Positions 10,956 to 63,934 of a DNA stretch of 64,000 nt are shown piece after piece. The notes below the pieces were generated by a model. It saw only the letters and a program-made list of their open reading frames with translations, was not told the DNA's origin and did no database searches. The translations under genes were made by a program, and so were the position numbers. The stretch's first letter is position 1. Every line of letters starts with the position of its first letter. This stretch comes from Physcomitrium patens (lineage: Eukaryota; Streptophyta; Bryopsida; Funariales; Funariaceae): the NCBI RefSeq assembly GCF_000002425.4, contig NC_037262.1:7810998-7874997 (forward strand), written 5' to 3'.

Positions 10956-11501
10956 TATCATAGATATATATATATATATATATACTAAAATTATAAATTA
11001 GGTGATATAAATATATAGAAGTAAATATAAATAGTTTAATTTCATAATATTTTCTAAAGAAGCTTTCTAGAAGCTTTTTAGATACTGTTTTGACTTTACA
11101 TGTATTTGTAGTTGATTGGTAGGTTAGAAACTTGGTCAACAAGCTAACCATGTACCATTTGTATTGTATGCTAACTATATGGCACTCATATAAAAAACTT
11201 GCTTTGTAAGTTAAAATATGTATCATATAAAGTCAACACATTTTTGGAGGTCCTATAGAACATCGCCACATAGATTCTAGATAGATAGTATATATAGAGG
11301 CAAGAATGAAGCTTTCTTCACTCTTGTTAACTCTTATTTTATTTCTTGTCTAGTTTCAAGAGTCTCTAGTTTTTTTTATCTTTTGGCAATAGCCATTTCA
11401 ATTTTTTTCTTATATACATACTTCTCTATTTTTATTTTGTCATATTTTTTTGAGAAAGTCTCACTTATTTATTTACTTTCATCAAGACCTTGTGCTTGAA
11501 A
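10956..11501 (+). repeat. 5' LTR of copy B (family 1)
   Basis: Aligns with the copy D LTR from the TATCAT start to CTTGAAA. It has a (TA)n run near its start, a TATA box in TAGTATATATAG and the palindrome GAATGAAG..CTTCACTC. A decayed self-primer site TTGACAAGAAT follows at 11504. Confidence 0.8.
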
Positions 11502-25587: not shown

Positions 25588-27442
25588 TATCATCGATATA
25601 TATCTATTATAATTTTTATTTAGGTAATATGAATTGGTAGAAGTAGATAAAAATAAATTAATATCATAAAACCTTTTAAAAAAGCTTCCTAGAAGCTTCT
25701 TAGATGCTATTTTGACTTTACATATATTTGTAGTTGATTGATAGGTTAAAAACTTGGTCAACAAACTAACCATATGTGATATGTATTAATAGCTCATAAA
25801 ACAAGCTAACTGTATAGCATCTATATAGAAAACTTACCTTTTAAGTTAAGTTATATTGTCGTGTTGTGGTTTGGCTACCATGTGAAAATAATGTGATTAT
25901 GTATTTAATGTACAATTTACTTAACAACATGGTGAGAGCCATGTTATTGGATTTTATTTGGTTGTAGAATGCAGTTAAAATACTACTTTAAAAAGAGGTT
26001 GTTTAAAAGAATTACTATTAAAATTTATATAACTTTATTTTCTTTTGATAGTGGCTTTTGAGATTGATTTTATTGGTAGTAATTTTAAATATTTAGAGTC
26101 ATTTTTATTAGACATTGGTGATCTTTGAAAACTTATTTTGATTTTTTTATTTGGTCTTTAGAGCATAAATTATGTAAATCATATAAAAAAAAAAGGTTGA
26201 AGAAGAGTTTTAGTAGCAAAGATAATTTAGGACATCTATACAGATGAATGGAGATAGATGATGAAAATCTCCATTAGGCTTTGAGGAAGCTGCGTGGGGC
26301 CATATTAGAGATTAAGGTTAGTTTTTTTAAGCCATTTCAACTTTGAAGGCTAGGATCATCAATTTTAGGTTTTTGGCTATGATTTTGGTACAAATCTTGT
26401 ATGGTTTGGTATTTATATGAAGGAAATATAGGCGCTCCAAGTTAAGGTGTTGTTGTAGGAGCTATTGTTTTTCTTTTTGACATAACGCACGCATACAAAA
26501 GGCAATTGAGGATTGGCAATTGCGACCAGAGAGAGCACTTTTGCGGCAACACTTTTTGTATATTGCTTGCTGGATTCCAAGTTGAAATGAAGGAGTTATT
26601 GGATTTTGAAGTCAGTGCATGCAATCTAAAGGTAGTAAGTGACTTGATTTACTAGTGGTTGTGTCTTGAGCTATATCTTGAGCAATTTGACAAGGTTTTG
26701 GCTCAAAATTTTAGAAAATGTGTAATTTCATGTTAATAAACTTTTTACATAATTTTGATGATATTTGAATATTAGATTCTTGAGATATTAAGAAAATAGT
26801 GCTCAAGTGCTTATAAATTAGGGTTTAGAGCATCTGCTAGAGTTTCTTAGATGCCAAAAGGTCAGAAGTGAATTTGCAATTGGTTTTTTTGTAGTAAAAT
26901 TTATAGGTGAATTCTACCTACCTTATAAATTTGAAACAAATTGAATGGTTAGATTAAGAGTTATGAATTTTTAAAGTTTGTGAAGAGAAAATCCTTCACA
27001 GAAAAAATATGTTTTGAAGGGATTTTGTTACATTTTGAGTTTTATTCAAATTAAAGGAGTTTTGGAAGCTAAGACAAAATTCATATAAAGTTTTAAACAA
27101 AACTCTCTAGAGCTAGATACCTAGTGTATTCCAAGATAACAAATAACGCGATATAACAATGTGTCATGTAAAATCAACATATTTTTGAAGGTCTTATAGA
27201 ACATTGCTACATAGATCTTATATAGATAATATATGTAGAGGCAATAATGAAGTCTTATTCACTCTTGTCAATTTCTTTCTTACTTCTAATCTAGTTTCAA
27301 GAATCTCTTATTTCATTGTCTTTTGCTAATAGCTATTCTAATTTCTTTTTTAATATATATATTTTTCTATTTTTATTTTGTCAAATTTCTTTGAAAGAGT
27401 CTCATTTATTTATTTTCTTTCATAAATTTCTTATCTTTGATA
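25588..27442 (+). repeat. 3' LTR of copy B, split by a family-4 LTR
   Basis: 25588-25856 and 27159-27442 join into a 553-bp family-1 LTR. A degraded polypurine tract (AGAATGAGAGATAA) precedes it. Confidence 0.8.
25857..27158 (+). repeat. Family-4 long solo LTR (1.30 kb)
   Basis: Starts TGTCGTGTTGTGG and ends GCGATATAACA. The flanks (ATAT, ATGT) fit a decayed duplication of host LTR sequence. A second, truncated copy is at 22176-24754. No coding sequence. Confidence 0.7.
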
Positions 27443-31467: not shown

Positions 31468-31932
31468 TGTCATAGACATACTCATGTAAGCCAATAATTA
31501 CATGTATAAATAGGTAGAAATAAGTAAAAGTAGATAAAAATAAGTTAAATCTATGGTATTTGGTATGGAAGCTTCCTAAAAGCTTCATAGACATTGCTTT
31601 GACTTTTTAGGTATCTTTAATTGACTTTTTGGGATTAGAATAAATATCAACAAGTTGGCCATGTGCCACACATCTTGTTAGTTTAAAGACCAAGCTAACT
31701 ATATGGCCCACACGTAGAAAAACTTGCCTTGTAAGTCAAGGCATGTGTCCTACAAAGTCAACACATATTGGAGGTCCTATAGAACATCGCCATGTAGCCC
31801 CCAATTAAATAGTATATATAGAGATAAGAGTGAAGCCTTCTTCACTCTTGTCAACTTCTTTCTTGCTTCCAGTCTAGTTTCAAGGGTCTCTAATTTTCTT
31901 GGCTTTTAGCAATAGCCATTCTAATTTCTTTC

Positions 31933-32000
<68 letters not shown>

Positions 32001-32079: not shown

Positions 32080-32090
32080 TTGACAAGAGT
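32080..32090 (+). other. Self-primer binding site of copy C
   Basis: TTGACAAGAGT, 2 nt after the LTR, fully complementary to ACTCTTGTCAA at the predicted RNA start in its own 5' LTR. TATCAGAGC, resembling part of the initiator-tRNA primer site, follows at 32101. Confidence 0.65.
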
Positions 32091-37812: not shown

Positions 37813-37874
<62 letters not shown>

Positions 37875-43798: not shown

Positions 43799-43925
43799 GT
43801 GGAGGCAGGTCAAGGAGGCTGCACGACCACGGATACATTCTCTCTGCTAGAAGGACTATGCAAAATAACACTACATAAACTCAATAATTCAGAATAAATT
43901 CAAGATCCCGAACAAAAAAGGATAT
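43799..43925 (-). other. U12-type AT-AC intron, UXS copy 1 intron 1
   Basis: 127-nt intron. 5' splice site ATATCCTTT, exact match to the minor-spliceosome consensus; branch-site TCCTTGAC (43809-43816); 3' end CCAC. It joins ...KTI to KTNVVG in phase 0. Confidence 0.88.
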
Positions 43926-44549
43926 GATAGTCTTGATTGGATTGAATTTGTAATGCACGGGCGACGCCGGACATGCCAGATGGTAAATCTGGTCCACCTC
44001 CAGCAACAGGGGTTCGACCACATCATGCCGGATCAGCTCGAACCGCGGATTCCCGAAGTGATGCTGCACGTTCTCTTTCCTCCCCGTGAAAAAATTATCT
44101 ACTACTATGACACTGTCGCCACGCTCGATCAATCTATCGACCAAGTGACTACCGACAAACCCTGCCCCGCCAGTCACCACAATTCGCAGTGGCTTCCGTG
44201 GCAAACCCAGAGGGATTTTCCCTCCCAGACTCACAATCGCAGAGCGGTGGGACTTATAGGGTGCTGTCTCAAATGTTCTTGTCGTCTGGTAAGATTCGTC
44301 AAAATTGTACGCCTGCACAGCTGTGTACGAGGACACATCCATCGTCCTCTGCCCGGACCCAAACTCAGGCTGTAAGAATAGGAAGAACGCGGTGGTGATG
44401 GCCACACCTACCAACACAAACACAAACCGCTGCTCACGAAGCACATACTCCACTGAGTTCGACATCGACCATTGCTTTTGCGGCTTTGGAGTGTATTTTT
44501 CATTCTCCGAAGTCACGTCCACCCGGCGGTGGTTCAAGGTCGCGTTCAT

Positions 44550-46479
44550 GATGCCCACCACTCTACGTCTCCAACAATGTTCTATCGAGATCCAACACCC
44601 GAAATTTCTCTCTCAAATCGCAGCAGACACTTTGCGCATTCAAAATCGCCCAAAAAACCGAAAACAGCCCCAGCTATGTAGCCAGATCTGTCGTAATTAC
44701 TCTTGAAAAAACTCCAGAGCACACTCGACGCAATCAGGGCTGGGAAAAGCCTGAGAAGGGACTGGAACCTCCGCGCAGCAACTCACGTCGCTGCAGAGCT
44801 CTCAGACAGGACCTGAGAGAAGCTGGAGCGATGAGTGAGTGAGTGACTCCCTGAAAGTTCACAGGTCCAGCAACGCCATAGCCACGATTGAAATAGGTGC
44901 GAGCACTGGCAAGGTCGCGTAACTCAAAGCCAACGAAAGCCCGATTCCGGAAACTCTTCCAGCGGCATTAATTATAAGGCCAGCATATGTACGTGGCTCC
45001 TACATCTGTCCGCCAATAATGAGTGTCCCAGGAGTATTAATAATGTTTTTAATGTAATGCCAGAGATGGAACCCGATCACTGGGGTGGCATGCAACAGTA
45101 CCGCATGTTGATTGATCGAATGTATAATTGATTCTGTGACAAAGGTGCAGTTATTTTCCTGTGGCATGCATACAATTCAGCGATCTCACACAACCCTGTA
45201 TTGCATGATTACATTCCTTTCAGGGAGGTGAAAACGATGTTATTGCTGCAGTTCAATCATCGCCCCATCGAATTAAGTCAATCACCGTATGGCACCTAAT
45301 CGAGATGTCAATAGGTGCTGGAGTTGGGAATATCACATGTATTTTCTGTGTATGATTAGCGAAATTCTTGTTCAATGAGCTCTGATTAGGAGGAGCGGGA
45401 TACCATATTCGTTGGAAATTAGACAAAAGTTCTTCCTCGACTGTAGAAGAGACCAGGTATGCAGTGGTAAACAGTGGATGCAGTAAACAGCCTGTATCAC
45501 TCAATCATGCCCAGGCTCCTCCACACTAACTGGACTTTAATATCTCGTAAAAGCCTCTAAAATATGCTTCGATGTAGGAAAGAACGGAGTCCCCATCGCA
45601 CACAGCGAGTTGCGAGGTTCTTCTTCGTAGTCGTGTCTTCGTCAACCCACAGAAGAAATAGTGACGCAATAAGACAAAAAAATTCAGCACAGATAGTCAA
45701 CATGGGAGACTGCTTCTTCCCAGCAAGTGAGTTTATAATAGCTCCATGATATAAAGCTACATTCCCAGCTGGCTGAAACAACAAAAAGTCTGGTCAGGTG
45801 CCAGATCCTAGATGTTCAAAGTAGGGAGCACAGGAATATCTGCTTAAGTCAACGTACATTCATGGGTCCATTTTGTGTTGCTCGCAAAAGTTAGAAATTT
45901 TCTTTCGAGGCCAATCATTATGTATCCACTTTTTACAGTATTCGGTATCATTATACTGTACATAATACTAAAGCCTCATGACCGTAGTTGGGATCAGTAA
46001 GCTCTACCCCACACGGAAACACATTGAATCTTACGGTCGAATCAGAACCGCGTAAGGTGTCGTGCAGCAGAGTCTGCAACAAATGCAACATCCGAGAATT
46101 GAGAAATGCCTACTTCATTCATGAACGTTAACTGAAAACCAAAACCCGACAATGATTCGTAGTCGCAAAATCCGTTAAGAACAGGCTCTGTAAAAAGCCC
46201 AATTACATCAGACAAACAGGTTGATCAGCTTTAGAACAACTAGTAGATAAGGCTGGTTAGCAAAAACCCATTACAATTCTACACGACAATTTTAATTTGT
46301 TCAAAGAACCTCCTAGTCTAATGAGTGACCATAGCCTCAATCATCTATAAAGCATTGCAATAAGGGGGTGGTAGCATCGTCAGCTTCCCACTATTTCGCC
46401 CGGACTTGGAATGCTGACAGGAAACCCACTCGACCCCCACTGGAGAGTAATCTGGAGTCCTTTACAGCTTGATAACCCC
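44550..46479. other. Intergenic region between the UXS copies
   Basis: Holds the promoter and 5' UTR of copy 1 (right of 44549) and the 3' end of copy 2 (left of 46480). CTCAGACAGGA near 44801 recurs upstream of copy 2 near 49836, so the duplication included 5' UTR. No other gene seen; several short ORFs look random. Confidence 0.6.
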
Positions 46480-49400
46480 TCAGACATCCTTATGGTCGCC
46501 AAAAATGCGTTTGCGGAAGTCTTCAACCATTAGAGGAAGCCCTTTCTCTAAGGAAATCTTTGGCTCCCATCCCAACAGCTCCTTTGCCTTGGAAATATCA
46601 GGCTTGCGCTTGTGTGGGTCGTCAGACGTGTTTTCCTTGTACTCGATTGTTGCTGTAGGATCTATCACGTCCTTGACCACCTGCATCACAACCACGTCAT
46701 GGCACTCTGAGTTTACAGACTGATAACGCAACTACCCACTCTCGCAGAATTCATTCAGACGAGCTGAGCTGCCGAGCCAGTTACTTTAGGAAAAAAACAA
46801 ACCACTATTTGCAAACAAAGTTGGTTAACATCTCCAGCCTACTTATGAAAGCTAACTGGAGAAGAGAACACCGCTCAAAAGTTCATGATCCAAGACCACG
46901 GATTTCACATTGAGCTAATGTCAACCAAATTTTACAAACACGGTTTCTGCAACAGACGAAGCAGAGCCTCAGAGATCATCAAGTTCATCAACCAAATAAA
47001 GAGCATGGTGAAAGTTGGTGCGTGGAACACTCACCTGAGCAAGTTCTAGAATGGTGAACTCGCCAGGGTTTCCTAAATTAAAAGGTCCAACATGCTCGCC
47101 TTCCATCAACCTCATGAGGCCCTCAACCTGCGGGACCACGTCACATCGTTAGTTTCCGACTTTTGTAAAGAAAACCGAAACCGGAGAGCGAAAATGAATG
47201 GAGAGCACCGAGTAACATAGGCATGCTCATCAAGAAATCAAAGAATGAATCGAGGAAGGAATCAGAAACCGACAAGCTTTATTTCACGTACCAGATCAGA
47301 GACGAACTGGAAACTCCTTGTTTGTTTTCCGTCACCATACACAGTCATAGGTTCTTTCCTCAGGGTCTGGACAAAATACGCAACGAGTTTGTCAATACTA
47401 TCCATCACGGTCAACATGGATACTTCCTCATTCGTATATCAGTTGTCAGTTACAAGTGCTAAGTTGAACATACAAACGGATATTGTTTCAAGGAGGTGAG
47501 TGCAAGAATTATAGATCAATCTCACCTGAGCAACAAAGTTACTGACAACCCTACCATCATCAATGCACATTCTTGGTCCATAAGTGTTGAAAATGCGGGC
47601 GATCCGAACCTGCATGCCTCCGAACATCAGGAGCATTACGACTAAAGTATAATGCAATCAAGTACGAAAAACTCAATTGACCCATCACATATTATTACAA
47701 CTTCCAATAAAAAATGCGTAAGACTAAATGGAAGCCAAACTCTACACAATTACTGAAGCCAAGTCACTTCACCTGCACATCTGCACCTCTATGGTAATCC
47801 ATAGCCAAAGTCTCAGCAGTGCGCTTTCCTTCATCGTAACAACTCCGAACACCTGCGTACCAACCGCAGCGTGCGCAGTCATTATTCTAAGTTTCCAGCC
47901 TCGCATCATGTCCATTCACGACATCAACCCATATCATACCGTTGCAGGATGTTTATTACCAACTTTCACCAGCATCAACCCACAAAAAAGCGCATGCTAT
48001 GCGAAAAGCTCTTCAGCTAGTAATCGAAATTCAATCCGATCATCTACAATGGTAAATAAATATGGTCACAGGTGCGCTGGCGCTGTCTAAAAAAATACGT
48101 ACAACAGACCGATCACATAGAAATTCTATCTCCCACTCGCACCAGAGAATTCTTTCTACCTAAATCTTGATTTCAGTGGTAGTGGTGTTGACGCGCATCG
48201 GAATTCACAATTAATGGAATGATGGGAAGAGACAATAATTAATACTTTCGAAACCCTCAGAGAGAACATAATCCTAAAAATTGTAGAGTACTGAAGAGCT
48301 CTTGAAAAGGAAGAAGACGGATAGACATTCAGCAGTAGCACTGAATGTTGGCAGGTGTTGATTTCAAACAAGTTTGGCTACAATTCTCCAGTAAATCACA
48401 CGCTTCAACACCTAAAACCACTTATCATCCAGGTTTCGCCACACTTACCGATAGGGTTCACGTTTCCCCAATACGTCTCTTTCTGAGGGTGCTCCAAAGG
48501 ATCGCCGTAAACCTCACTTGTGCTGGTCAGCAAGAATCGTGCTCCAATCCGCTTCGCCAATCCCAACATGTTCAATGTTCCCACCACATTGGTCTTGTGA
48601 TGGTAAGTTAAGGAGGGTTCACAAAGATTATCCTTCTTGAAGTGAATGAAACGACTTCTACGCGTGAGAGCCGCGCAGAAGACCAGACGTTGTGGAAGGA
48701 CGACAGCAGTAACCTTAGGTACTTTACTGTATGAAACGACCCAGGGCATTGCCACAATCAGCCTTGACAAAGTAGGCGCATTACTTATCTTTAAGCACAA
48801 AATCACATCTAATGTTAATAGCGCAGTTTCGAACAACATTACGTCCGTGCATCAAAGGATTTCTAACAGACAAGCTATGAAACTCAAAGCAAATTCAACA
48901 GGAGTGAGAAAATAAGATCAAACTTTACCCCAATCGCTGCACATGCACTCTTCCCAACCAAACACCAATCCACAAACTTGGAATCAAAAAAGGGGCCCGT
49001 TCGAGAGCACGCAAGCACCAGTGCCACAACCAACAACATGATCTGACGAACCCGCCCTCCTGATGTCATTAACGGTAAACCCCAACATTCTTTGAAAGGA
49101 TATGATTGTCTTGATTGGATTGAATTTGTAATGCACGGGCGACGCCGGACATGCCAGATGGTAAATCTGGTCCACCTCCAGCAAAAGGGGTTCGACCACA
49201 TCATGCCGGATTAACTCAAACCGCGGATTCCCAAAGTGATGCTGCACGTTCTCTTTCCTCCCCGTGAAAAAATTATCCACCACTATAACACTGTCCCCGC
49301 GCTCGATTAACCTGTCCACCAAGTGACTACCCACAAACCCTGCTCCGCCAGTCACTACAATCCGCAGCGGCTTCCGTGGCAAACCCAGCGGAATCTTTCC

Positions 49401-49739
49401 TGCTCCACCAGTAATGACCGCGGCGTGTTGCTTGTACGGGGAGTTCCCATTCCCAGAGAAACGCGTCTCTCCCAACGAGTCTTTCACATTAAATCCCCCA
49501 TCTACACCCCCAATAGCACCCGAATTCACATACGTCCTCATAAACCGAAACTCGGGCTGCAAAAACAAAAAGAACAGAGTGGTAATAGCCACCCCAATCA
49601 GCACAAACACGAACCGCTGTTCACGAAGCACATACTCCGCGGACCGCGCAAGGGACCATTGCTTCTGCGGCTTGGGCGTGTACTTCTCATCACCCGGCGA
49701 CACTTCCACGCGGCGGTGATTCAAGTTTGGGCTCATCAT
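46480..49739 (-). CDS. UXS: UDP-glucuronate decarboxylase (UDP-xylose synthase), membrane-anchored type
   Basis: Converts UDP-glucuronate to UDP-xylose with bound NAD+, in the Golgi, for xylan and other xylosylated glycans. Seven exons (minus): 49739-49104, 48596-48449, 47852-47773, 47609-47526, 47366-47292, 47127-47035, 46680-46480; they join in frame to 438 aa, near the usual length of plant membrane-type UXS. Start [10 protein letters not shown] (a second Met follows directly). Residues 42-61 form one membrane helix (type II anchor), then a variable stem, then [13 protein letters not shown] (NAD site, about 128-140), TSTSEVYGD (236-244), Y267-x3-K271 in SCYDEGKR, and end [23 protein letters not shown]. 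Intron 1 is U12-type AT-AC; the others are GT-AG. Copy 1 lies 1.9 kb downstream in tandem. Confidence 0.94.
48597..49103 (-). other. U12-type AT-AC intron, UXS copy 2 intron 1
   Basis: 507-nt intron. 5' splice site ATATCCTTTC, branch-site TCCTTAAC (48607-48614) about 11 nt from the 3' end ATCAC. Phase 0 junction KTI/KTNVVG. It lacks a GT donor at this boundary. Confidence 0.9.
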
Positions 49740-49980
49740 GGCAAGAATGAACCAACGATGCACTTCCAGGTCCTGGCTGAAACCTCCCGGTTCCTAGTGC
49801 TCGATCTGCTCGCTGTGGAAGAGGCGCGGGGACTGCCTCAGACAGGAGAGCTGAATCCCGACGTCTGCCAACTTCTGTCGCCGGTGCTCGTGCGACGAGC
49901 ACTCACAGGCAAAACCCCAGAGCCTGCGGTCGGCCGAGCAAACGGAGCGGGTATCGAGAGGGTATCAGGTCATCACCCAT
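49740..49980 (-). promoter_or_regulatory. 5' region of UXS copy 2, abruptly bounded by repeats
   Basis: GC-rich sequence upstream of the start codon ends sharply at about 49979, where AT-rich LTR-related DNA begins. Any further promoter must lie in repeat sequence. I see no clear TATA box in the GC-rich part. Confidence 0.45.
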
Positions 49981-54492: not shown

Positions 54493-54504
54493 CAGTCTTG
54501 ACAA
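54493..54504 (-). other. Self-primer binding site of element M
   Basis: TTGTCAAGACTG, 2 nt after the 5' LTR. It complements CAGTCTCGACAA (54639-54628, minus), at the predicted RNA start, at 11 of 12 positions; the mismatch is an A for G expected from CpG decay. Confidence 0.6.
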
Positions 54505-54506
54505 AC

Positions 54507-54898
54507 TGTCACGGACACAAAATTACAGACTCGAGATCTAACAAGAAGTTCAGGAAGAACTGACAAGAACTAGATTAATCAGATGAGAACAACACCAGAG
54601 AGGTGAGCTAGAGCTCCAAGAGATGTGTTGTCGAGACTGAAGAACTCTTCAGCCTCGTTTCCAATATATACTTCTATTTAGGAAGTTTCTCAAGCAACTT
54701 CTACTAATTAGGAAGCTTCTAAAAGGTTCCAGAGACTTGCTTCTAGAAGGTTCTAGAAACTTATCTCTAGAAGGTTCTAAGGACTATGTCTCTAATATCT
54801 TCTACCAACTAAGAAGCTTCTAGAAGGTTCCAGAGACTTGCTTCTAGAAGGTTCTAAAAACTTGTCTCTAGAAGATTCTAAGGATTATGTCCCTAACA
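54507..54898 (-). repeat. 5' LTR of element M (family 2)
   Basis: 392 bp, TGTTAGGGACATAA to CCGTGACA on the minus strand. Duplicated U3 units with perfect heat-shock arrays, TATA at 54670, palindrome at 54657-54632. Confidence 0.88.
54740..54859 (-). promoter_or_regulatory. Heat-shock-element arrays in the element M LTR
   Basis: Perfect four-unit nTTCn/nGAAn arrays at 54740-54759 and 54812-54831, and a three-unit site at 54841-54855, all upstream of the TATA box. Confidence 0.65.
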
Positions 54899-55620: not shown

Positions 55621-55981
55621 AAAGGCACCAAAGGCTAGTATTGAGAACAACTATTGTCTCCGAGAGACAAATGGCATAGTCTCAAACAACTATAAAAATA
55701 GTTGATTGGTACATCTAATGAGACTACTAAGAAGACAATTATGTCAAGTGCTTGTAAATTATCGATGTACAAAAAATTACATCTCAACTAAAATTGCCAA
55801 CTAACTTGAAATTAAAATTAGGGAAATCAAGGAAAGAAGTATGTACCTTACAGATGATTGAGAAAACATATTGAATGAGACACATGAAGAAGAAATCTTA
55901 CGGTTGATTGATATTTGTGTCTTAAGAGAGAGATTTAAGGTGAAAAAGTTAAGATATGATGTTATCCTTGGTATGCCATGG
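55621..55981 (+). pseudogene. pol: Protease region of element G
   Basis: LVNYRCTKNYISTKIAN is a decayed VDSGCTKNYIS-type active site near 55750, and KLRYDVILGMPW closes the protease just before the copy D LTR. Confidence 0.55.
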
Positions 55982-56533
55982 TGTCACGGCCATAATCATG
56001 TAAGCTAATAATTACATATAGAAATAGGTAGAAGTAAGTAAAAGTAGATAAAAGTAAGTTAATTATATAATATTTAATATAGAAGCTTCCTAGAAACTTC
56101 CTAGACGCTGCTTTGACTTCATAGGTGTCTTTAATTGACTTTTTGGATTAGAAACGTGGTCAACAAGTTGGCCATGTGCCACACATGTTGTTAGCTTGAA
56201 GATCAAGGTAACTATGTGGCCCACACGTAAAAAAACTTGCCTTGTAAGTCAAGGCATGTGTCCTACAAAGTCAACACATATTGGAGGTCCTATAGAACGT
56301 CGCCACGTAGCCCCTAGTTAGATAGTATATATAGAGACAAGAGTGAAGGCTTCTTCACTCTTGTCAACTCCTTTCTTGCTTCTAGTCCAGGTTCAAGAGT
56401 CTTTAGTTTCTTGTCTTGTGGCAATAGCCATTCCAGTTTCCTTTTAATATACCTACTTGTTTATATTTTGACTTATTATATCGAGATAGCCTTTTGGTGT
56501 ATATTTTTTCTCATCGAGTCTTTGTCCTTGACA
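55982..56533 (+). repeat. 5' LTR of copy D (family 1)
   Basis: TGTCACGGCCATAATC to GTCCTTGACA. U3 has GAAGCTTCCTAGAAACTTCC, TATA at 56326-56333, then a palindrome, then U5 rich in T and C. Confidence 0.95.
56326..56367 (+). promoter_or_regulatory. Core promoter, U3/R palindrome and predicted RNA start of copy D
   Basis: TATATATA (56326-56333) is followed by GACAAGAGTGAAG (56336-56348), loop GCTT and the exact inverted arm CTTCACTCTTGTC (56353-56365). The predicted RNA start is at 56357, 31 nt after the TATA start, so RNA would begin ACTCTTGTCAA. Confidence 0.65.
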
Positions 56534-56535
56534 GA

Positions 56536-56546
56536 TTGACAAGAGT
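56536..56546 (+). other. Self-primer binding site of copy D
   Basis: TTGACAAGAGT, 2 nt past the LTR, is fully complementary (11 nt) to the predicted RNA 5' end at 56357-56367. This is the arrangement known from yeast Tf1. A tRNA-Met-like TATCAGAGC lies 24 nt past the LTR at 56557-56565, without the TGG that would pair with the tRNA CCA end. Confidence 0.7.
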
Positions 56547-56746
56547 ACACATACAATATCAGAGCTTTGTTTTTTTCTTGAGTAAGAGTGGATTACCCCT
56601 TTCTCTTGACAAGACATAAGCGTATTAGAAGTTTGCGGATTACCCACTTCTAAACTGATATTGTTCTTAGTATCTTCTTTATTATCAAGTCTTTCTTTTC
56701 TTTTGTCTTGAGCAATATCAAACAAATTTTTCTTCTTAGTGTCATT

Positions 56747-57751
56747 ATGGCAGAACTTGTTGAAATGAAGAGTGCAATGGCACAAATGCAAGAGCAAATG
56801 AGGGAGTTAATGCTTGCGATGCATCAACTCAATTCACCAATACATGAAAGAACAAGAATAGAAGAAAGTGGAGATATAGAGATGATCGGAGCTGCTTCAA
56901 CATCTACAACAAATCACGTTCCTTCTCCAATTGTACAACACCCTATAAGCACTAGAGAACCAAGAATTGCCTTACCTGAGAAATTTGATGGTACAAGATC
57001 AAAGTTTCGAGGGTTCATCAATCAAGTACAATTGGCAATTGAACTTCAACCGCAAAGCTATCCAACTCCAGGATCACAAGTCAGGTTTATTGACACTCTA
57101 CTTTCTGGTTCTGCATTATCGTGGTTTTCGTCTTTTCTTGAACAACGAAATCCAATATTGGACAATTTGGAAGCTTTTTTGGCGGAGTTTCGATCTATGT
57201 ATGGTGAACACGATGCAACTCGTGTTGCAACAAATAAGATCCGAATTCTGCGACAAGGAAATCGCTCAGTAACAGTATATGCTTCACAATTTCGACAACT
57301 TGCAATTGACATCAAGTGGGATGATGCTGCACTCATCAGTCAATTTCTTTATGGATTGCAATACGAAGTAAAGAAATTGATGCTCAACTTACCTGATCCT
57401 CAAACTTTGAGTCAAGCAATCGATTTTGCGGTAAAATGTGATAATCGACTTTTTGAATTTCGATCTGAGAATCATTCACGGGAACCTCAACGTTATTACT
57501 CAATGGCAACATCAACATCTTTGCCAAACGTACATTTGGAAGTAGAAGACATGCAAATTGACCCGGTACGTTTTAAACCCCTAACTGAGCAAGAAAAGAT
57601 TCGTCGTCGTCAAGAAGGATTATGTTTATATTGCGGAGAACCTAAGCACACTGCTCAACATTGTCCAAAGAAACGACGCAACTATAAAATGAGGGGTACG
57701 ACGGTCAAAGAAGACAACATGTCGGAAAACGGATTCGTCCAGCTACAATAG
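56747..57751 (+). CDS. gag: Gag polyprotein of copy D
   Basis: 334 aa from ATG 56747 (MAELVEMKSAMAQMQEQMRE); the same Met opens gag in copies B and C, so an upstream in-frame alternative start is unlikely. N-terminal coiled coil (residues 1-28), a variable linker, capsid domain from about REPRIALPEKFDGTRSKFRG to FRSENHSREP, and a zinc knuckle CLYCGEPKHTAQHC near residue 300 for RNA binding. Ends at TAG 57749-57751, inside the loop of the frameshift hairpin. Cytoplasmic particle protein. Confidence 0.93.
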   Translation: MAELVEMKSAMAQMQEQMRELMLAMHQLNSPIHERTRIEESGDIEMIGAASTSTTNHVPSPIVQHPISTREPRIALPEKFDGTRSKFRGFINQVQLAIELQPQSYPTPGSQVRFIDTLLSGSALSWFSSFLEQRNPILDNLEAFLAEFRSMYGEHDATRVATNKIRILRQGNRSVTVYASQFRQLAIDIKWDDAALISQFLYGLQYEVKKLMLNLPDPQTLSQAIDFAVKCDNRLFEFRSENHSREPQRYYSMATSTSLPNVHLEVEDMQIDPVRFKPLTEQEKIRRRQEGLCLYCGEPKHTAQHCPKKRRNYKMRGTTVKEDNMSENGFVQLQ

Positions 57752-60700
57752 GGACCGTGCAGCTGGAACCTTGTACAATTCCTAATGAAGGTCCTATCCT
57801 CTCCTCAGAACCCTCTCCTTGTTTTATAATAGACTTATATTTAGGACCTAAGAATTACAAAGCCTCTGCTTTATTAGATTCGGGAGCCTCAGCATGTTTT
57901 TTAGATGAACAATTTGTTAAAAGTCGTAAAATACCCTTTGTACAGAAACCTAAACCAGTACATGTAGAAGTCATAGATGGTCGTCCCTTGTCTTCTAGAG
58001 ATGTCACTCATGAAACTCATCCTATAAAAGTAACAATAGACGGTCATGATAGCTACATAGCTTTTAACATAATTAAATCCCCGTCCAATCCAGTTATTTT
58101 AGGTTTATCCTGGCTAGAAAAATATAACCCTCGAATAGATTGGAATTCGCGTAAACTTGACTTTTCCAAAAGCGTTATTAATAGTTCTACGAACCAAGTA
58201 AAAAATTATAAGTCTAGTACAGTAAAACCCGTACTGATAGGTGCAAAAGTATTTATACATGCAGCAAAAGAAGGATCAACTTTTGCTATTTATGCTGCAC
58301 CTATTTCTGAAAACGTAAAGACTTCAAGTGGCATTCCAAGTCAATATCAGGAGTATCAAGACGTTTTTAAGAAAAAGAATGCAGATATTCTTCCTGAGCA
58401 TCGTCCATATGATTGTTCAATCGACCTCAAGGAAGGAACTCAGCCACCATTTGGACCAATTTACAGTTTATCGCAAGATGAGATGGCTGAACTCAAGACA
58501 TATATTGACGAGAATTTAGCGAAGAATTTCATACGCCATTCAAAATCTCCAGCAGGAGCTCCAATTCTATTCGTAAAGAAAAAAGATGGATCTTTACGAA
58601 TGTGTGTTGATTATCGAGGACTCAACAAGATCACAATCAAGAACAGGTATCCATTACCTTTGATATCAAGACTCCTTGACCAGCTGAATCAAGCTAAGAT
58701 CTATACAAAAATAGATCTAAGAGGAGCATATAATCTAGTACGGATCAAAGAAGGAGATGAATGGAAGACTGCGTTTCGAACCAAGTATGGACATTTCGAA
58801 TATAATGTCATGCCCTTTGGACTCACGAATGCACCAGCTGCTTTTCAACATCTCATGAATGATGTATTTCGTGAATTCTTAGACAATTTTGTCGTCTGCT
58901 ATCTAGACGATATCCTGATCTATTCTAAGAACGTCGAAGAACATGAAATATATGTTCGTCAAGTATTACAAAAACTTAGAGATGTAGGATTGTACGCCAA
59001 GATGGAAAAGTGTGTATTTCACACTACTCAAGTTGACTTTTTAGGATACATCATTTCAAATGATGGTCTCATGATGGATTCTAAGAAAGTCCAAACAATC
59101 ATGGATTGGAAGATTCCAAGGACAGTAAGAGATGTCCAATGTTTCTTGGGATTTGCCAATTACTATCGGATCTTCATCAAAGATTTCTCACGAGTTGCAG
59201 CTCCACTTACACGCTTGACTAGTAAAGATAAATTTCAATGGAATCAAGAAGCGGAAGCAGCATTTGAAGCCTTGAAGACATCGTTTGTCTCTGCACCAGT
59301 CTTATATCGTGTTGACTTTTCCAAGGCATTTTTTATGGAAACAGATGCATCAGATTTTGCCTTGGGTGCAGTTTTATCACAAATGGGAACAGATGACAAA
59401 CTTCATCCGATAGCTTTTCATTCAAGAAAATTCTCAGCAGCCGAGATCAATTATGAGATCCACGATAAAGAACTTCTTGCGATCGTGGATTCCTTTCAAG
59501 AATGGCGTCATTATCTAGAAGGCGCTTCTAGTCCAGTCACTGTGTATACAGATCACAAGAACCTCGAGTATTTCATGTCAGCACGCGTGTTGAATCGTCG
59601 TCAAGCTCGTTGGAGTATGTCTTTGTCAAGATTCGAGTTCATTATCACTTATCGGCCAGGAAAACAACAAGGTTTATCCGATGCCCTATCTAGACGTTCT
59701 TATTTTGCACCAAAAGAAGGAGATGCAGTTTTTGAGCAACAAAGAACGATCCTCTTGAAACCGGAGCAATTTCATCTCCGAGCAATGAAATCAACATTGA
59801 CTTTTGATTCAACTTTTCTCAAGCAAATCCAGTCCTGTATGTCCTCAGACCCTCTTGTTTATGATATCGAGAATAATTCTTCCAAGTCTCATGATCCTTC
59901 TAAGTTTGAGTTCAAGAATAATCTATTATATTTTGAAGGACGCCTATATGTTCCAGAAGGAGAAGCACGTTTACGTGTTCTTCAAGCACGTCATGACTTT
60001 CCAGCAGCAGGGCACTTTGGATATAATAAGACTTTGGAACTCATATCAAGAGATTTTTGGTGGCCACAAATGTGGAAGTCAGTCAAAGACTTTGTACAAT
60101 CATGTGATATTTGTTCAAGATCAAAAATTCCTCGTCATCGACCTTACGGACTTCTTCAGCCATTACCTATACCAGAACAACCATGGTCTTCTGTTTCTAT
60201 GGATTTCATCACAGATCTTCCAAGCTCAAGATCTTATGATTCTATATTTGTGATAGTAGATCGTTTCACCAAGATGGCACATTTTGTGCCATGTACAAAA
60301 TCTATCACAGGTGAAGAAACAGCTAAGCTTTTCATTGATAATATCTATCGCTATCATGGATTACCTAAAGATATCATATCGGATAGGGGAACTCAATTTG
60401 TGTCAAGATTTTGGAGGACCCTTTTCAAGATTTTAAAAGTGGACATAAAGCTATCTTCGGCTTTCCATCCTCAAACTGATGGACAAACAGAGCGCGTAAA
60501 CCAAGTCTTGGAGCAATATTTAAGGTGTACTATCAACTACCAACAAGATGATTGGACAACCCTTCTGCCATTGGCAGAGTTTGCTTATGATAATACGGTA
60601 CATTCTTCCACGCAACAAACACCTTTCTTTGCCAATTATGGCTATCATCCACGACTTGATACTTTTGATTTTTCAAAAGTTGATAATCCTGCAGCAGAAG

Positions 60701-61245
60701 ATATGGCAAATCGGTTGTCAGAGTTACATGCAATAATGAAGACACAATTGAAGGAAGCTCAAGAACGACAAAAGATAAACGCAGATCTATATCGTAAGGA
60801 GCAACCACAAATCAACGTGGGTGATAAGGTATGGCTACTTCGTCGCAATATCAAGACTACTCGACCTTGTGACAAGTTGGACTATCGTAGGCTTGGCCCC
60901 TTTTCTGTTTCTGAACAGATCAACCCAGTTGCATATCGGTTACATCTACCGGAGTCAATGAAGATCCATCCTGTATTCCACGTATCTCTTCTTGAACCAT
61001 ATAAGACAGTGGATATACAAGGAAGAAGACAAATGCCACCGCCTCCTATAGAAGTAGATAATAATGAAGAATTTGAGGTAGAAGAGATATTAGACTCAAG
61101 GCGGCGCCGAAATAAGCTGGAATATCTTGTTCATTGGCGCGGATATGATATTAGTGAACGCACATGGGAGCCATCCAGGAATCTAGCAAATGCATCAGCT
61201 AAAGTCAAAGTTTTTCATCAACGACATCCATCAAAACCAAGATGA
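57688..61245 (+). CDS. pol: Pol polyprotein of copy D (PR-RT-RNH-IN-chromodomain)
   Basis: Open -1 frame with no stop over 3.5 kb; expression needs frameshifting from gag. Residues counted from 57757: protease LLDSGASACFLD (39-50); RT with [20 protein letters not shown] and YLDD (381-384); RNase H with ETDASDFALGAVLSQ (Asp near 529), HDKELLAIV, YTDHKNLEYF and GLSDALSRR; integrase zinc finger HDFPAAGHF...CDICSR (about 746-785), DDE core with MDFITDLP, SDRGTQFVSRFW and QTDGQTERVNQ; GPF module; chromodomain VEEILDSRRRRNKLEYL, VHWRGYDISERTWEP to PSKPR. All catalytic residues I can check are present. Tf1/sushi-like chromovirus; makes and inserts element cDNA. Confidence 0.95.
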   Translation, partial: NEGYDGQRRQHVGKRIRPATIGTVQLEPCTIPNEGPILSSEPSPCFIIDLYLGPKNYKASALLDSGASACFLDEQFVKSRKIPFVQKPKPVHVEVIDGRPLSSRDVTHETHPIKVTIDGHDSYIAFNIIKSPSNPVILGLSWLEKYNPRIDWNSRKLDFSKSVINSSTNQVKNYKSSTVKPVLIGAKVFIHAAKEGSTFAIYAAPISENVKTSSGIPSQYQEYQDVFKKKNADILPEHRPYDCSIDLKEGTQPPFGPIYSLSQDEMAELKTYIDENLAKNFIRHSKSPAGAPILFVKKKDGSLRMCVDYRGLNKITIKNRYPLPLISRLLDQLNQAKIYTKIDLRGAYNLVRIKEGDEWKTAFRTKYGHFEYNVMPFGLTNAPAAFQHLMNDVFREFLDNFVVCYLDDILIYSKNVEEHEIYVRQVLQKLRDVGLYAKMEKCVFHTTQVDFLGYIISNDGLMMDSKKVQTIMDWKIPRTVRDVQCFLGFANYYRIFIKDFSRVAAPLTRLTSKDKFQWNQEAEAAFEALKTSFVSAPVLYRVDFSKAFFMETDASDFALGAVLSQMGTDDKLHPIAFHSRKFSAAEINYEIHDKELLAIVDSFQEWRHYLEGASSPVTVYTDHKNLEYFMSARVLNRRQARWSMSLSRFEFIITYRPGKQQGLSDALSRRSYFAPKEGDAVFEQQRTILLKPEQFHLRAMKSTLTFDSTFLKQIQSCMSSDPLVYDIENNSSKSHDPSKFEFKNNLLYFEGRLYVPEGEARLRVLQARHDFPAAGHFGYNKTLELISRDFWWPQMWKSVKDFVQSCDICSRSKIPRHRPYGLLQPLPIPEQPWSSVSMDFITDLPSSRSYDSIFVIVDRFTKMAHFVPCTKSITGEETAKLFIDNIYRYHGLPKDIISDRGTQFVSRFWRTLFKILKVDIKLSSAFHPQTDGQTERVNQVLEQYLRCTINYQQDDWTTLLPLAEFAYDNTVHSSTQQTPFFANYGYHPRLDTFDFSKVDNPAAEDMANRLSELHAIMKTQLKEAQERQKINADLYRKEQPQINVGDKVWLLRRNIKTTRPCDKLDYRRLGPFSVSEQINPVAYRLHLPESMKIHPVFHVSLLEPYKTVDIQGRRQMPPPPIEVDNNEEFEVEEILDSRRRRNKLEYLVHWRGYDISERTWEPSRNLANASAKVKVFHQRHPSKPR
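57724..57766 (+). promoter_or_regulatory. gag-pol -1 frameshift module of copy D
   Basis: GGAAAAC (57724-57730), 8-nt spacer, stem CCAGCTACA (57739-57747) with TGCAGCTGG (57758-57766), one A.C mismatch, and 10-nt loop with the TAG stop. pol is open in the -1 frame from 57688, so the frames overlap by 64 nt. Confidence 0.7.
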
Positions 61246-61803: not shown

Positions 61804-62355
61804 TGTCACGGCCATAATCATGTAAGCTAATAATTACATATAGAAATAGGTAGAAGTAAGTAAAAGTAGATAAAAGTAAGTTAATTCTATAATATTTAAT
61901 ATAGAAGCTTCCTAGAAACTTCTTAGACGCTGCTTTGACTTCATAGGTGTCTTTAATTGACTTTTTGGATTAGAAACGTGGTCAACAAGTTGGCCATGTG
62001 CCACACATGTTGTTAGCTTGAAGATCAAGCTAACTATGTGGCCCACACGTAGAAAAACTTGCCTTGTAAGTCAAGGCATGTGTCCTACAAAGTCAACACA
62101 TATTGGAGGTCCTATAGAACGTCGCCACGTAGCCCCTAGTTAGATAGTATATATAGAGACAAGAGTGAAGGCTTCTTCACTCTTGTCAACTCCTTTCTTG
62201 CTTCTAGTCCAGGTTCAAGAGTCTTTAGTTTCTTGTCTTGTGGCAATAGCCATTCCAGTTTCCTTTTAATATACCTACTTGTTTATATTTTGACTTATTA
62301 TATCGAGATAGCCTTTTGGTGTATATTTTCCCTCATCGAGTCTTTGTCCTTGACA
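61804..62355 (+). repeat. 3' LTR of copy D
   Basis: 552 bp. Palindrome at 62158-62187. Differences from the 5' LTR include CCTAGAC/CTTAGAC, AAGGTA/AAGCTA and TTTTTT/TTTCCC changes. Confidence 0.95.
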
Positions 62356-63934
62356 CAAGAGGCTACAAATTCTGTGGCACACATGATGAATAGAATGCAT
62401 AAGGTACTAAGAGATTTTATTCCAAGAATAACAATGCCTTTTCTAGATGATGTGCCAATTAAGGGATGTGAAGAAGAAAGAAAAGATGAGACTTTGGATT
62501 CAAAGGGATGTAGGATGTTTGTGGCAAATCATATTGAAGATTGTGAGAAGATTTTGAAAAGATTGGAAGAAGTTCATTTAACCTTATCGAGGATAAAATC
62601 AATGTTTGGAGTAAAAGAAATTTTAGTAGTAGGACACATGTGTGGTTCATATGGACGTAAGCCAAGTATAGAAAAGATTGATATTATTAAAAAGATGAAA
62701 GAATATAAAAATATAACGAAAGTGAGAAGATTTTTAGGAGCATGTATTTTCTATCATATATGGATACCTTACTTTACACATATAGCAGATCCATTGTATG
62801 AGTTATTAAGAAAGAATCAAAAATTTCAATGGAAAAAAGAACAACAGAAAGCTATGGAAAAATTGAAAGAACTTCTTTCTTTATATCCAACTTTGAAGAA
62901 AGTAAATTATGAAGGTGGAAGGCCAGTGGTATTAACAGTTGATGCAAGTCCAATTGAAATAGGTTGGACGGTTGGACAAGATGATGAACAAGGGAATAGA
63001 TATGTAATAAGATTTGGAGGAAAGGTATTGAATTCTAGGCAAAGGACATATGCGCAAATCAAAAGAGAATTATGGGGTGTAGTAATAGCTATGAAAAATG
63101 AAAAAGAGTACTTGATTGGGGCATCAATAGTTATAGAAACAGATTGTCTACCTTTGTTAGGCATGATTACAAGTTGTTCAACTCCTGATATTGCTATGTT
63201 GAGGTGGATAGCATATATCAAATCTATGAATCCAGAATTTAAACATATTGCAGGGAGAGAAAATTCAATTGCAGATATGTTATCAAGAGCGAGGTATAAT
63301 GATGAAAAAAAGATGATTGATTTAGAAGATGATGTGGGTACAAATTTTTATACCAATGCGTTATCAAAGGAGAAGGGTGTATGTTTTAATATACCATTGA
63401 AAATATTTTTAAGAGATTTATATGAAAATGAATGGAAAGATGTTGAAGAGTATTTGAGCACATTAAAGCGACAAAAAGGTTGGACGGATCAAGAATTTAA
63501 GAAAATCCGTAAGAAAGCCTATAGATATTTTTTACATGATGGATATTTATGGAAGCATCCAAAAAAGAGAAGAGAAGTACCACAAAGGATAATATGTGGT
63601 TTAGAAGCTCAACAAAAGATTATTAAAGAATTTTATGAAAATTTATAGACAGGGCATCGAGGTATTTGGACAACATTCACTAAGTTAAGAGAAAAATATT
63701 GGTGGAAGGGAATGTACAAAGACATAGCAAAATTTGTAGAATCTTGTGAGACTTGCCAAATATATTCAAATATTTGGCATCGAGATGGATTACATCCAAC
63801 ATACCCTTTGGCTTTATATTACAAATGGATGGTGGATTTAGTGGCAATGCCTATGTGACTTGGACAAATGAAGTATTTAGTACTTGCACGAGAAGATTTA
63901 TCAAATATGGTTGAAGGACGAGCATTAAAAATTT
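62356..63934 (+). pseudogene. pol: RT end, RNase H and integrase start of element G
   Basis: Open from the LTR boundary to the TAG at 63646-63648, then continuing in frame with further stops. RT: TNSVAHMMNRMHKVLRDFIP, MPFLDDVPIKGCEEE (FLDD box), IKSMFGVKEILVVGHMCG, RRFLGACIFYHIWIPYF; RNase H: LTVDASPIEIGWTVGQ, GKVLNSRQRTYAQIKREL, VIETDCLPLLGM, NSIADMLSRARY; integrase zinc finger TGHRGIWTTF...CETCQIYS and WMVDLVAMPM. A distinct Ty3 lineage with an inserted acidic loop after FLDD. The first two thirds of RT is missing; an ORF caller may extend it leftward into the LTR, which is not real. Confidence 0.82.

Follow-up and report, generated by a model that had tools for sequence, protein, structure and literature searches.

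Introduction

Self-priming of reverse transcription was first demonstrated in Tf1 of fission yeast (PMC4600332), whose primer is 11 nt long (PMC7175516) and whose RNA is described as a 'pretzel', with two extra duplexes flanking the primer duplex (PMC10085805). Novikova 2010 (PMC2864245) assigned the chromoviruses of Physcomitrium patens to the Tcn1 clade and reported finding no priming evidence in Selaginella, and Neumann 2019 (PMC6317226) found that most Tcn1-clade chromoviruses of mosses and club mosses lack a tRNA-type primer-binding site (PBS) and predicted that they self-prime. In the accessible text of the literature cited here, self-priming in plants is a prediction only, and in that of a 2025 plant review (PMC12786077) tRNA priming comes up but self-priming does not. 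One P. patens family, RLG1, is abundant and reported to be expressed in protonema (PMC7466625). An earlier note on the DNA analysed here proposed Tf1-type self-priming for three of its elements, copies D and C and element M, and implied that this would be novel in a plant chromovirus; the novelty does not hold, because self-priming had already been predicted for moss Tcn1-clade chromoviruses (PMC6317226).

Results

Architecture of copy D

The window is the whole 64,000-nucleotide stretch that we analysed (G000:C10:7810998-7874997); genome-wide searches covered the 470-Mb assembly of 101 contigs. Copy D has the following features.

55982..56533, + strand: 5' LTR (TGTCACGG..CCTTGACA), 552 nt
56326..56333, + strand: TATA box TATATATA, beginning 31 nt upstream of the inferred RNA start
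56357..56367, + strand: inferred RNA nt 1-11, the putative self-primer ACTCTTGTCAA; start placed by its C|A context and its distance from the TATA box
56534..56535, + strand: spacer GA between LTR end and PBS, 2 nt
56536..56546, + strand: PBS TTGACAAGAGT, exact complement of 56357-56367
56747..57751, + strand: gag reading frame (Retrotrans_gag, Ty3_capsid)
57688..61245, + strand: pol reading frame (protease, RT, RNase H, integrase, SH3_Tf2-1, chromodomain)
61804..62355, + strand: 3' LTR, 552 nt, carrying the U3/R hairpin from 62158 and the primer sequence at 62179-62189

The pol frame, which was searched in four pieces, is open and has the order protease, RT, RNase H, integrase with a C-terminal chromodomain that defines Ty3/gypsy chromoviruses; its SH3 domain is Tf2-1-like, and Ty3 RT is the best match of its RT among solved structures. 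By eye, the chromodomain reads F..W..Y at the putative aromatic-cage positions. Many Galadriel and Chlamyvir elements are likewise reported to have such a cage (PMC6317226). Copies D, C and M are probably all LTR retrotransposons of this type, and their membership of the Tcn1 clade, which follows the literature placement of P. patens elements, is also probable. The two LTRs of copy D are 98.9% identical, and despite this likeness no matching target-site duplication was found in its flanks, CATGG (55977-55981) and CAAGA (62356-62360); the copy is perhaps recombinant.

A conserved complement between R and the sequence past the LTR

We took from PMC6317226 the definition of a self-priming site as a complement of at least 10 nt to the 5' LTR that starts 0-5 nt past the LTR, and such a complement is present here. 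Both halves claimed for copy D in the earlier note were found as stated: the 11-nt PBS at 56536-56546 lies 2 nt past the LTR end at 56533 and pairs exactly with 56357-56367, and TATATATA begins at 56326, 31 nt ahead of A56357, the TATA spacing that had been given. Copy C also bears out the claim that it keeps both halves, and element M has its own pair.

31844..31854, + strand: self-primer sequence, copy C
32080..32090, + strand: PBS, copy C, 11/11 paired, 236 nt away from the self-primer across an (AT)n run
54628..54638, - strand: self-primer AGTCTCGACAA, element M (54628-54639 with the flanking base)
54494..54504, - strand: PBS with one decayed base, element M (54493-54504 with the flanking base)

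In both LTRs of copy C, (AT)n arrays (about 31936-31980 and 37819-37855) lie between the primer sequence and the LTR end, and in the 5' LTR the pairing is retained despite the array. For element M, the pairing at 11 of 12 sites that had been reported holds at 12 nt with the flanking base and is 10/11 otherwise. The mismatch reflects decay of the window's own M, since most relatives have a pairing base at that position (22 C-G, 2 T-G and 4 mismatched among 28). In its U3, element M has a tandem direct repeat with a 101-nt unit, the copies of which are 88% alike, at 54688-54889. The window holds a further, decayed D-type copy (R at 11320), absent from the earlier note, that pairs at 9/11 plus one G.U, and a primer sequence at 27261 for which no partner site was found in the window.

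Chance rarely produces such complements. Among 4,000 dinucleotide shuffles of a 553-nt stretch with the D LTR, only two had an 11/11 match to the PBS anywhere, and none did when M and M2 (a rare variant described below) were each shuffled 4,000 times over the final 332 or 338 nt of the LTR; the test is conservative and ignores position. Genome-wide, the two D halves occur exactly and at the right spacing in 3,353 places and the M-family pair in 1,490, counts that omit other spacings such as that of copy C, while backward-pattern controls for D and M gave 0 places. By eye, judged from their first 80 nt, the roughly one hundred D places listed include clearly divergent subfamilies.

Individual copies were read in sets chosen because they resemble the query or contain a pattern that includes part of the PBS. 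All seven D copies fetched by similarity (L002-L008) and all five from the leader-pattern list (L055-L059, four of them picked for a TATGAG leader) pair at 11/11. Among 29 relatives of M (L010-L038), 17 pair at 11/11, 10 at 10/11 and 2 at 9/11. Of 67 items compared together, 54 could be read (L064 and L068 have no leader). The copies L039-L054 and L060-L068 lean against pairing, because they were fetched with a pattern demanding a base other than T at base 3 of R. Those that have a leader and an altered R (L039, L043, L051, L053, L054, L060, L065) reach between 8 and 10 pairs out of 11, and two, L047 and L062, pair at 11/11 despite this selection. In nine fetched stretches a PBS follows the LTR in three (L060, L062, L065) and in six there is none. 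Families with a PBS not starting with TTG were sought genome-wide, and none of the 4 places found is, by eye, a new family. A TGACA-based pattern gave 2,328 places, D-type by eye among those listed, and is uninformative for new families because TGACA lies inside the D PBS.

Compensated differences between families

Three of the 11 positions, 2, 6 and 8, distinguish the D family from the M family, and every difference is compensated in the other half. Mixing halves lowers the pairing to 8/11 between D and M, 7/11 between D and M2, and 10/11 between M and M2. The rare third variant M2, present in 2 places, adds one more compensated position, position 3, where the R/PBS combinations genome-wide are T/A in 1,490 places, C/G in 2, C/A in 6 and T/G in 1 (Fisher p = 7e-5, with the two C/G places sharing a body). 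This shared body makes position 3 probably one event. By eye, similar-bodied elements with the T/A pair are among the M places listed, and the change seems, from these sequences, to have arisen within an M2-type body; the M2-bodied copy L065 has A/A at position 3, a mismatch. The D/M contrast is probably likewise one event. We rejected a reading of the covariation as many independent events, since there is one D/M contrast and probably one more in M2. The covariation between two families is supported more strongly than the earlier note could show.

L060 and L061 are apparently the two LTRs of one D-type element, in which R bases 2-3 are changed alike in both LTRs and the PBS is unchanged. By analogy, this single case agrees with the Tf1 scheme, under which a new copy would take the first 11 nt of its R from the 3' LTR.

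Predicted folding and the U3/R hairpin

When the RNAs of D, C, three M copies (L010, L020, L038) and M2 are folded with A56357 or the equivalent base as their first nucleotide, the minimum-energy structure contains 10-11 primer:PBS pairs, with a mean pair probability of 0.81-0.95. The stability of the 244-nt D leader is no better than that of shuffles (z -0.52), nor is that of the decayed M leader of the window (z 0.35), whose predicted fold lacks the primer pairing. Duplexes flanking the primer duplex, as in the Tf1 pretzel, do not exceed chance in D, M (L010) or M2 (six duplexes, with 45-466 of 500 shuffles as good), and an Rfam search of LTR and leader gave a single sub-threshold match, whose 18.4 bits fall short of the gathering score of 60. 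The proposed likeness to Tf1 is supported in its geometry and covariation.

The R half of the complement overlaps a perfect hairpin in copy D.

56336..56348, + strand: U3 arm GACAAGAGTGAAG of a 13-bp hairpin; its GACAAGAGT repeats the PBS
56353..56365, + strand: R-side arm CTTCACTCTTGTC of the hairpin

Outside (AT)n runs, the two D LTRs are the only places in the window with perfect 13-bp inverted repeats around a loop of 3-6 nt. M2 (L047, L062) carries a perfect 13-bp hairpin of its own, unlike that of D, and the usual M arm, whose outermost base is unlike that of M2, forms 11 standard pairs plus a G.U and leaves one mismatch; the D-type copies L055-L058 have one G.U. The U3 arm matches nine PBS bases in D and M2 and is two bases off in M. 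It thus changes together with the PBS between D and M2, and M lags by two bases. The hairpin is predicted to be more stable (-19.8 kcal/mol in D, -18.9 in M, -23.7 in M2) than the primer duplex (-14.4, -16.2 and -18.3, respectively).

These observations favour a rival to self-priming, in which R would be conserved because it makes up one half of a promoter palindrome, with the downstream copy serving only in RNA folding or packaging. The presence of the R half in the U3/R hairpin means that its conservation need not reflect priming alone. Yet this reading leaves unexplained the fixed distance of 2 nt from the LTR, the absence of a TGG-type tRNA site and the published kinship with self-priming elements, and we consider it improbable.

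Another small RNA, for example a tRNA fragment of some kind, could instead prime at 56536-56546, as half-tRNA primers occur in other plant lineages (PMC6317226). A site for such an RNA is not expected to covary with the element's own R, and the observed compensation makes this reading very hard to sustain.

The tRNA-Met-like site and the leader

The leader of copy D contains one sequence that might suggest a conventional primer.

56557..56565, + strand: TATCAGAGC, resembling part of the plant initiator tRNA-Met PBS, without TGG; half of a predicted leader stem

We take this 9-mer to be a match to the plant initiator tRNA-Met site. D and M2 both retain it, as do 23 of 28 M relatives, and most chromoviruses are of the tRNA-Met-primed type (PMC6317226). 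Nevertheless, ordinary initiator tRNA-Met priming at this site has a very slim chance of being correct and was rejected: the 9-mer lacks the TGG needed for pairing with the CCA end of the tRNA, is 24 nt distant from the LTR, is missing from two D3-type leaders (L051, L053) and forms part of a predicted leader stem with CTGATA, though this stem is not strict. Nor is there a PBS starting with TGG 0-5 nt past the LTR, or any TGG within 8 nt of it, in D, M (L010) or M2 (L047).

The leader past the PBS (56534-56690; D, L010, L047) is predicted to form a three-way junction in which two hairpins carry GGATTACC, a junction absent from the minimum-energy leader folds of C and of the M copy L014. When 11 leaders of D and M type are aligned, 9 of the 32 predicted pairs have changed on both sides, which is essentially one D/M contrast, and in the TATGAG leader subfamily the compensating partner is absent in 4 of 4 copies, so that one stem pair is broken.

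A fungal contaminant was rejected, as the window has plant-like genes: UDP-xylose-synthase-like exons, named by eye, lie at 43.9-49.8 kb and fit the description of copy D as a plant chromovirus. These exons comprise two pieces in the same orientation (43881-44612 and 48405-49793), a possible tandem duplication.

Discussion

Our results make Tf1-type self-priming by far the best explanation for the complement in D, C and M, and a likely one. By this mechanism, the RNA of copy D would begin at A56357, its first 11 nt would fold back onto the site 2 nt past the 5' LTR, and the element's own RNase H would cleave after nt 11. The freed 11-mer would then prime minus-strand DNA, the end of which would correspond to the LTR end plus 2 nt and would be trimmed by integrase.

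The hairpin confronts self-priming models with the question of how the primer sequence at the 5' end is told from its identical 3' copy. If A56357 is indeed the first nucleotide, the U3 arm is missing from the 5' end of the RNA and the hairpin can form only in the 3' LTR copy. One tentative solution, for which the odds seem to us rather low, is that the U3 arm acts as a third copy of the PBS and locks the 3' primer copy, so that only the true 5' end pairs; such a lock would give a self-priming element a built-in choice of the right primer. Besides this lock, the hairpin may have a promoter role or a role in strand transfer. The available text of PMC10085805 on the Tf1 pretzel RNA makes no mention of a comparable U3/R hairpin.

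The abundance and the chromodomain of these elements match RLG1, which suggests that they may correspond to RLG1 or to PpatensLTR. If the family is RLG1, the prediction of self-priming becomes directly testable in P. patens, a standard laboratory plant.

Several described systems resemble the elements studied here to different degrees. The TAR-lineage plant elements Houba and Osr-1 are likewise predicted to self-prime (PMC6317226), but they are Ty1/copia elements, whereas D, C and M are chromoviruses. SM-Tcn1 of Selaginella moellendorffii belongs, by the literature, to the same clade. Tf1 of Schizosaccharomyces pombe shares with the moss elements the 11-nt complement between the RNA 5' end (here inferred) and the PBS, as well as RT, RNase H, integrase and chromodomain; the moss elements differ in having a plant host and no supported pretzel duplexes, and in that their self-priming is predicted from sequence. 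The Tcn1 chromoviruses of mosses and club mosses (PpatensLTR) are also plant chromoviruses with a chromodomain, predicted self-priming and very high copy number. The published prediction for them is clade-wide and covers the novelty of self-priming itself, with the exception of the U3/R hairpin; the available account in PMC6317226 does not contain the base-level geometry, the covariation or this hairpin. What this analysis adds is the geometry at the level of single bases, the genome-wide counts and the 13-bp U3/R hairpin.
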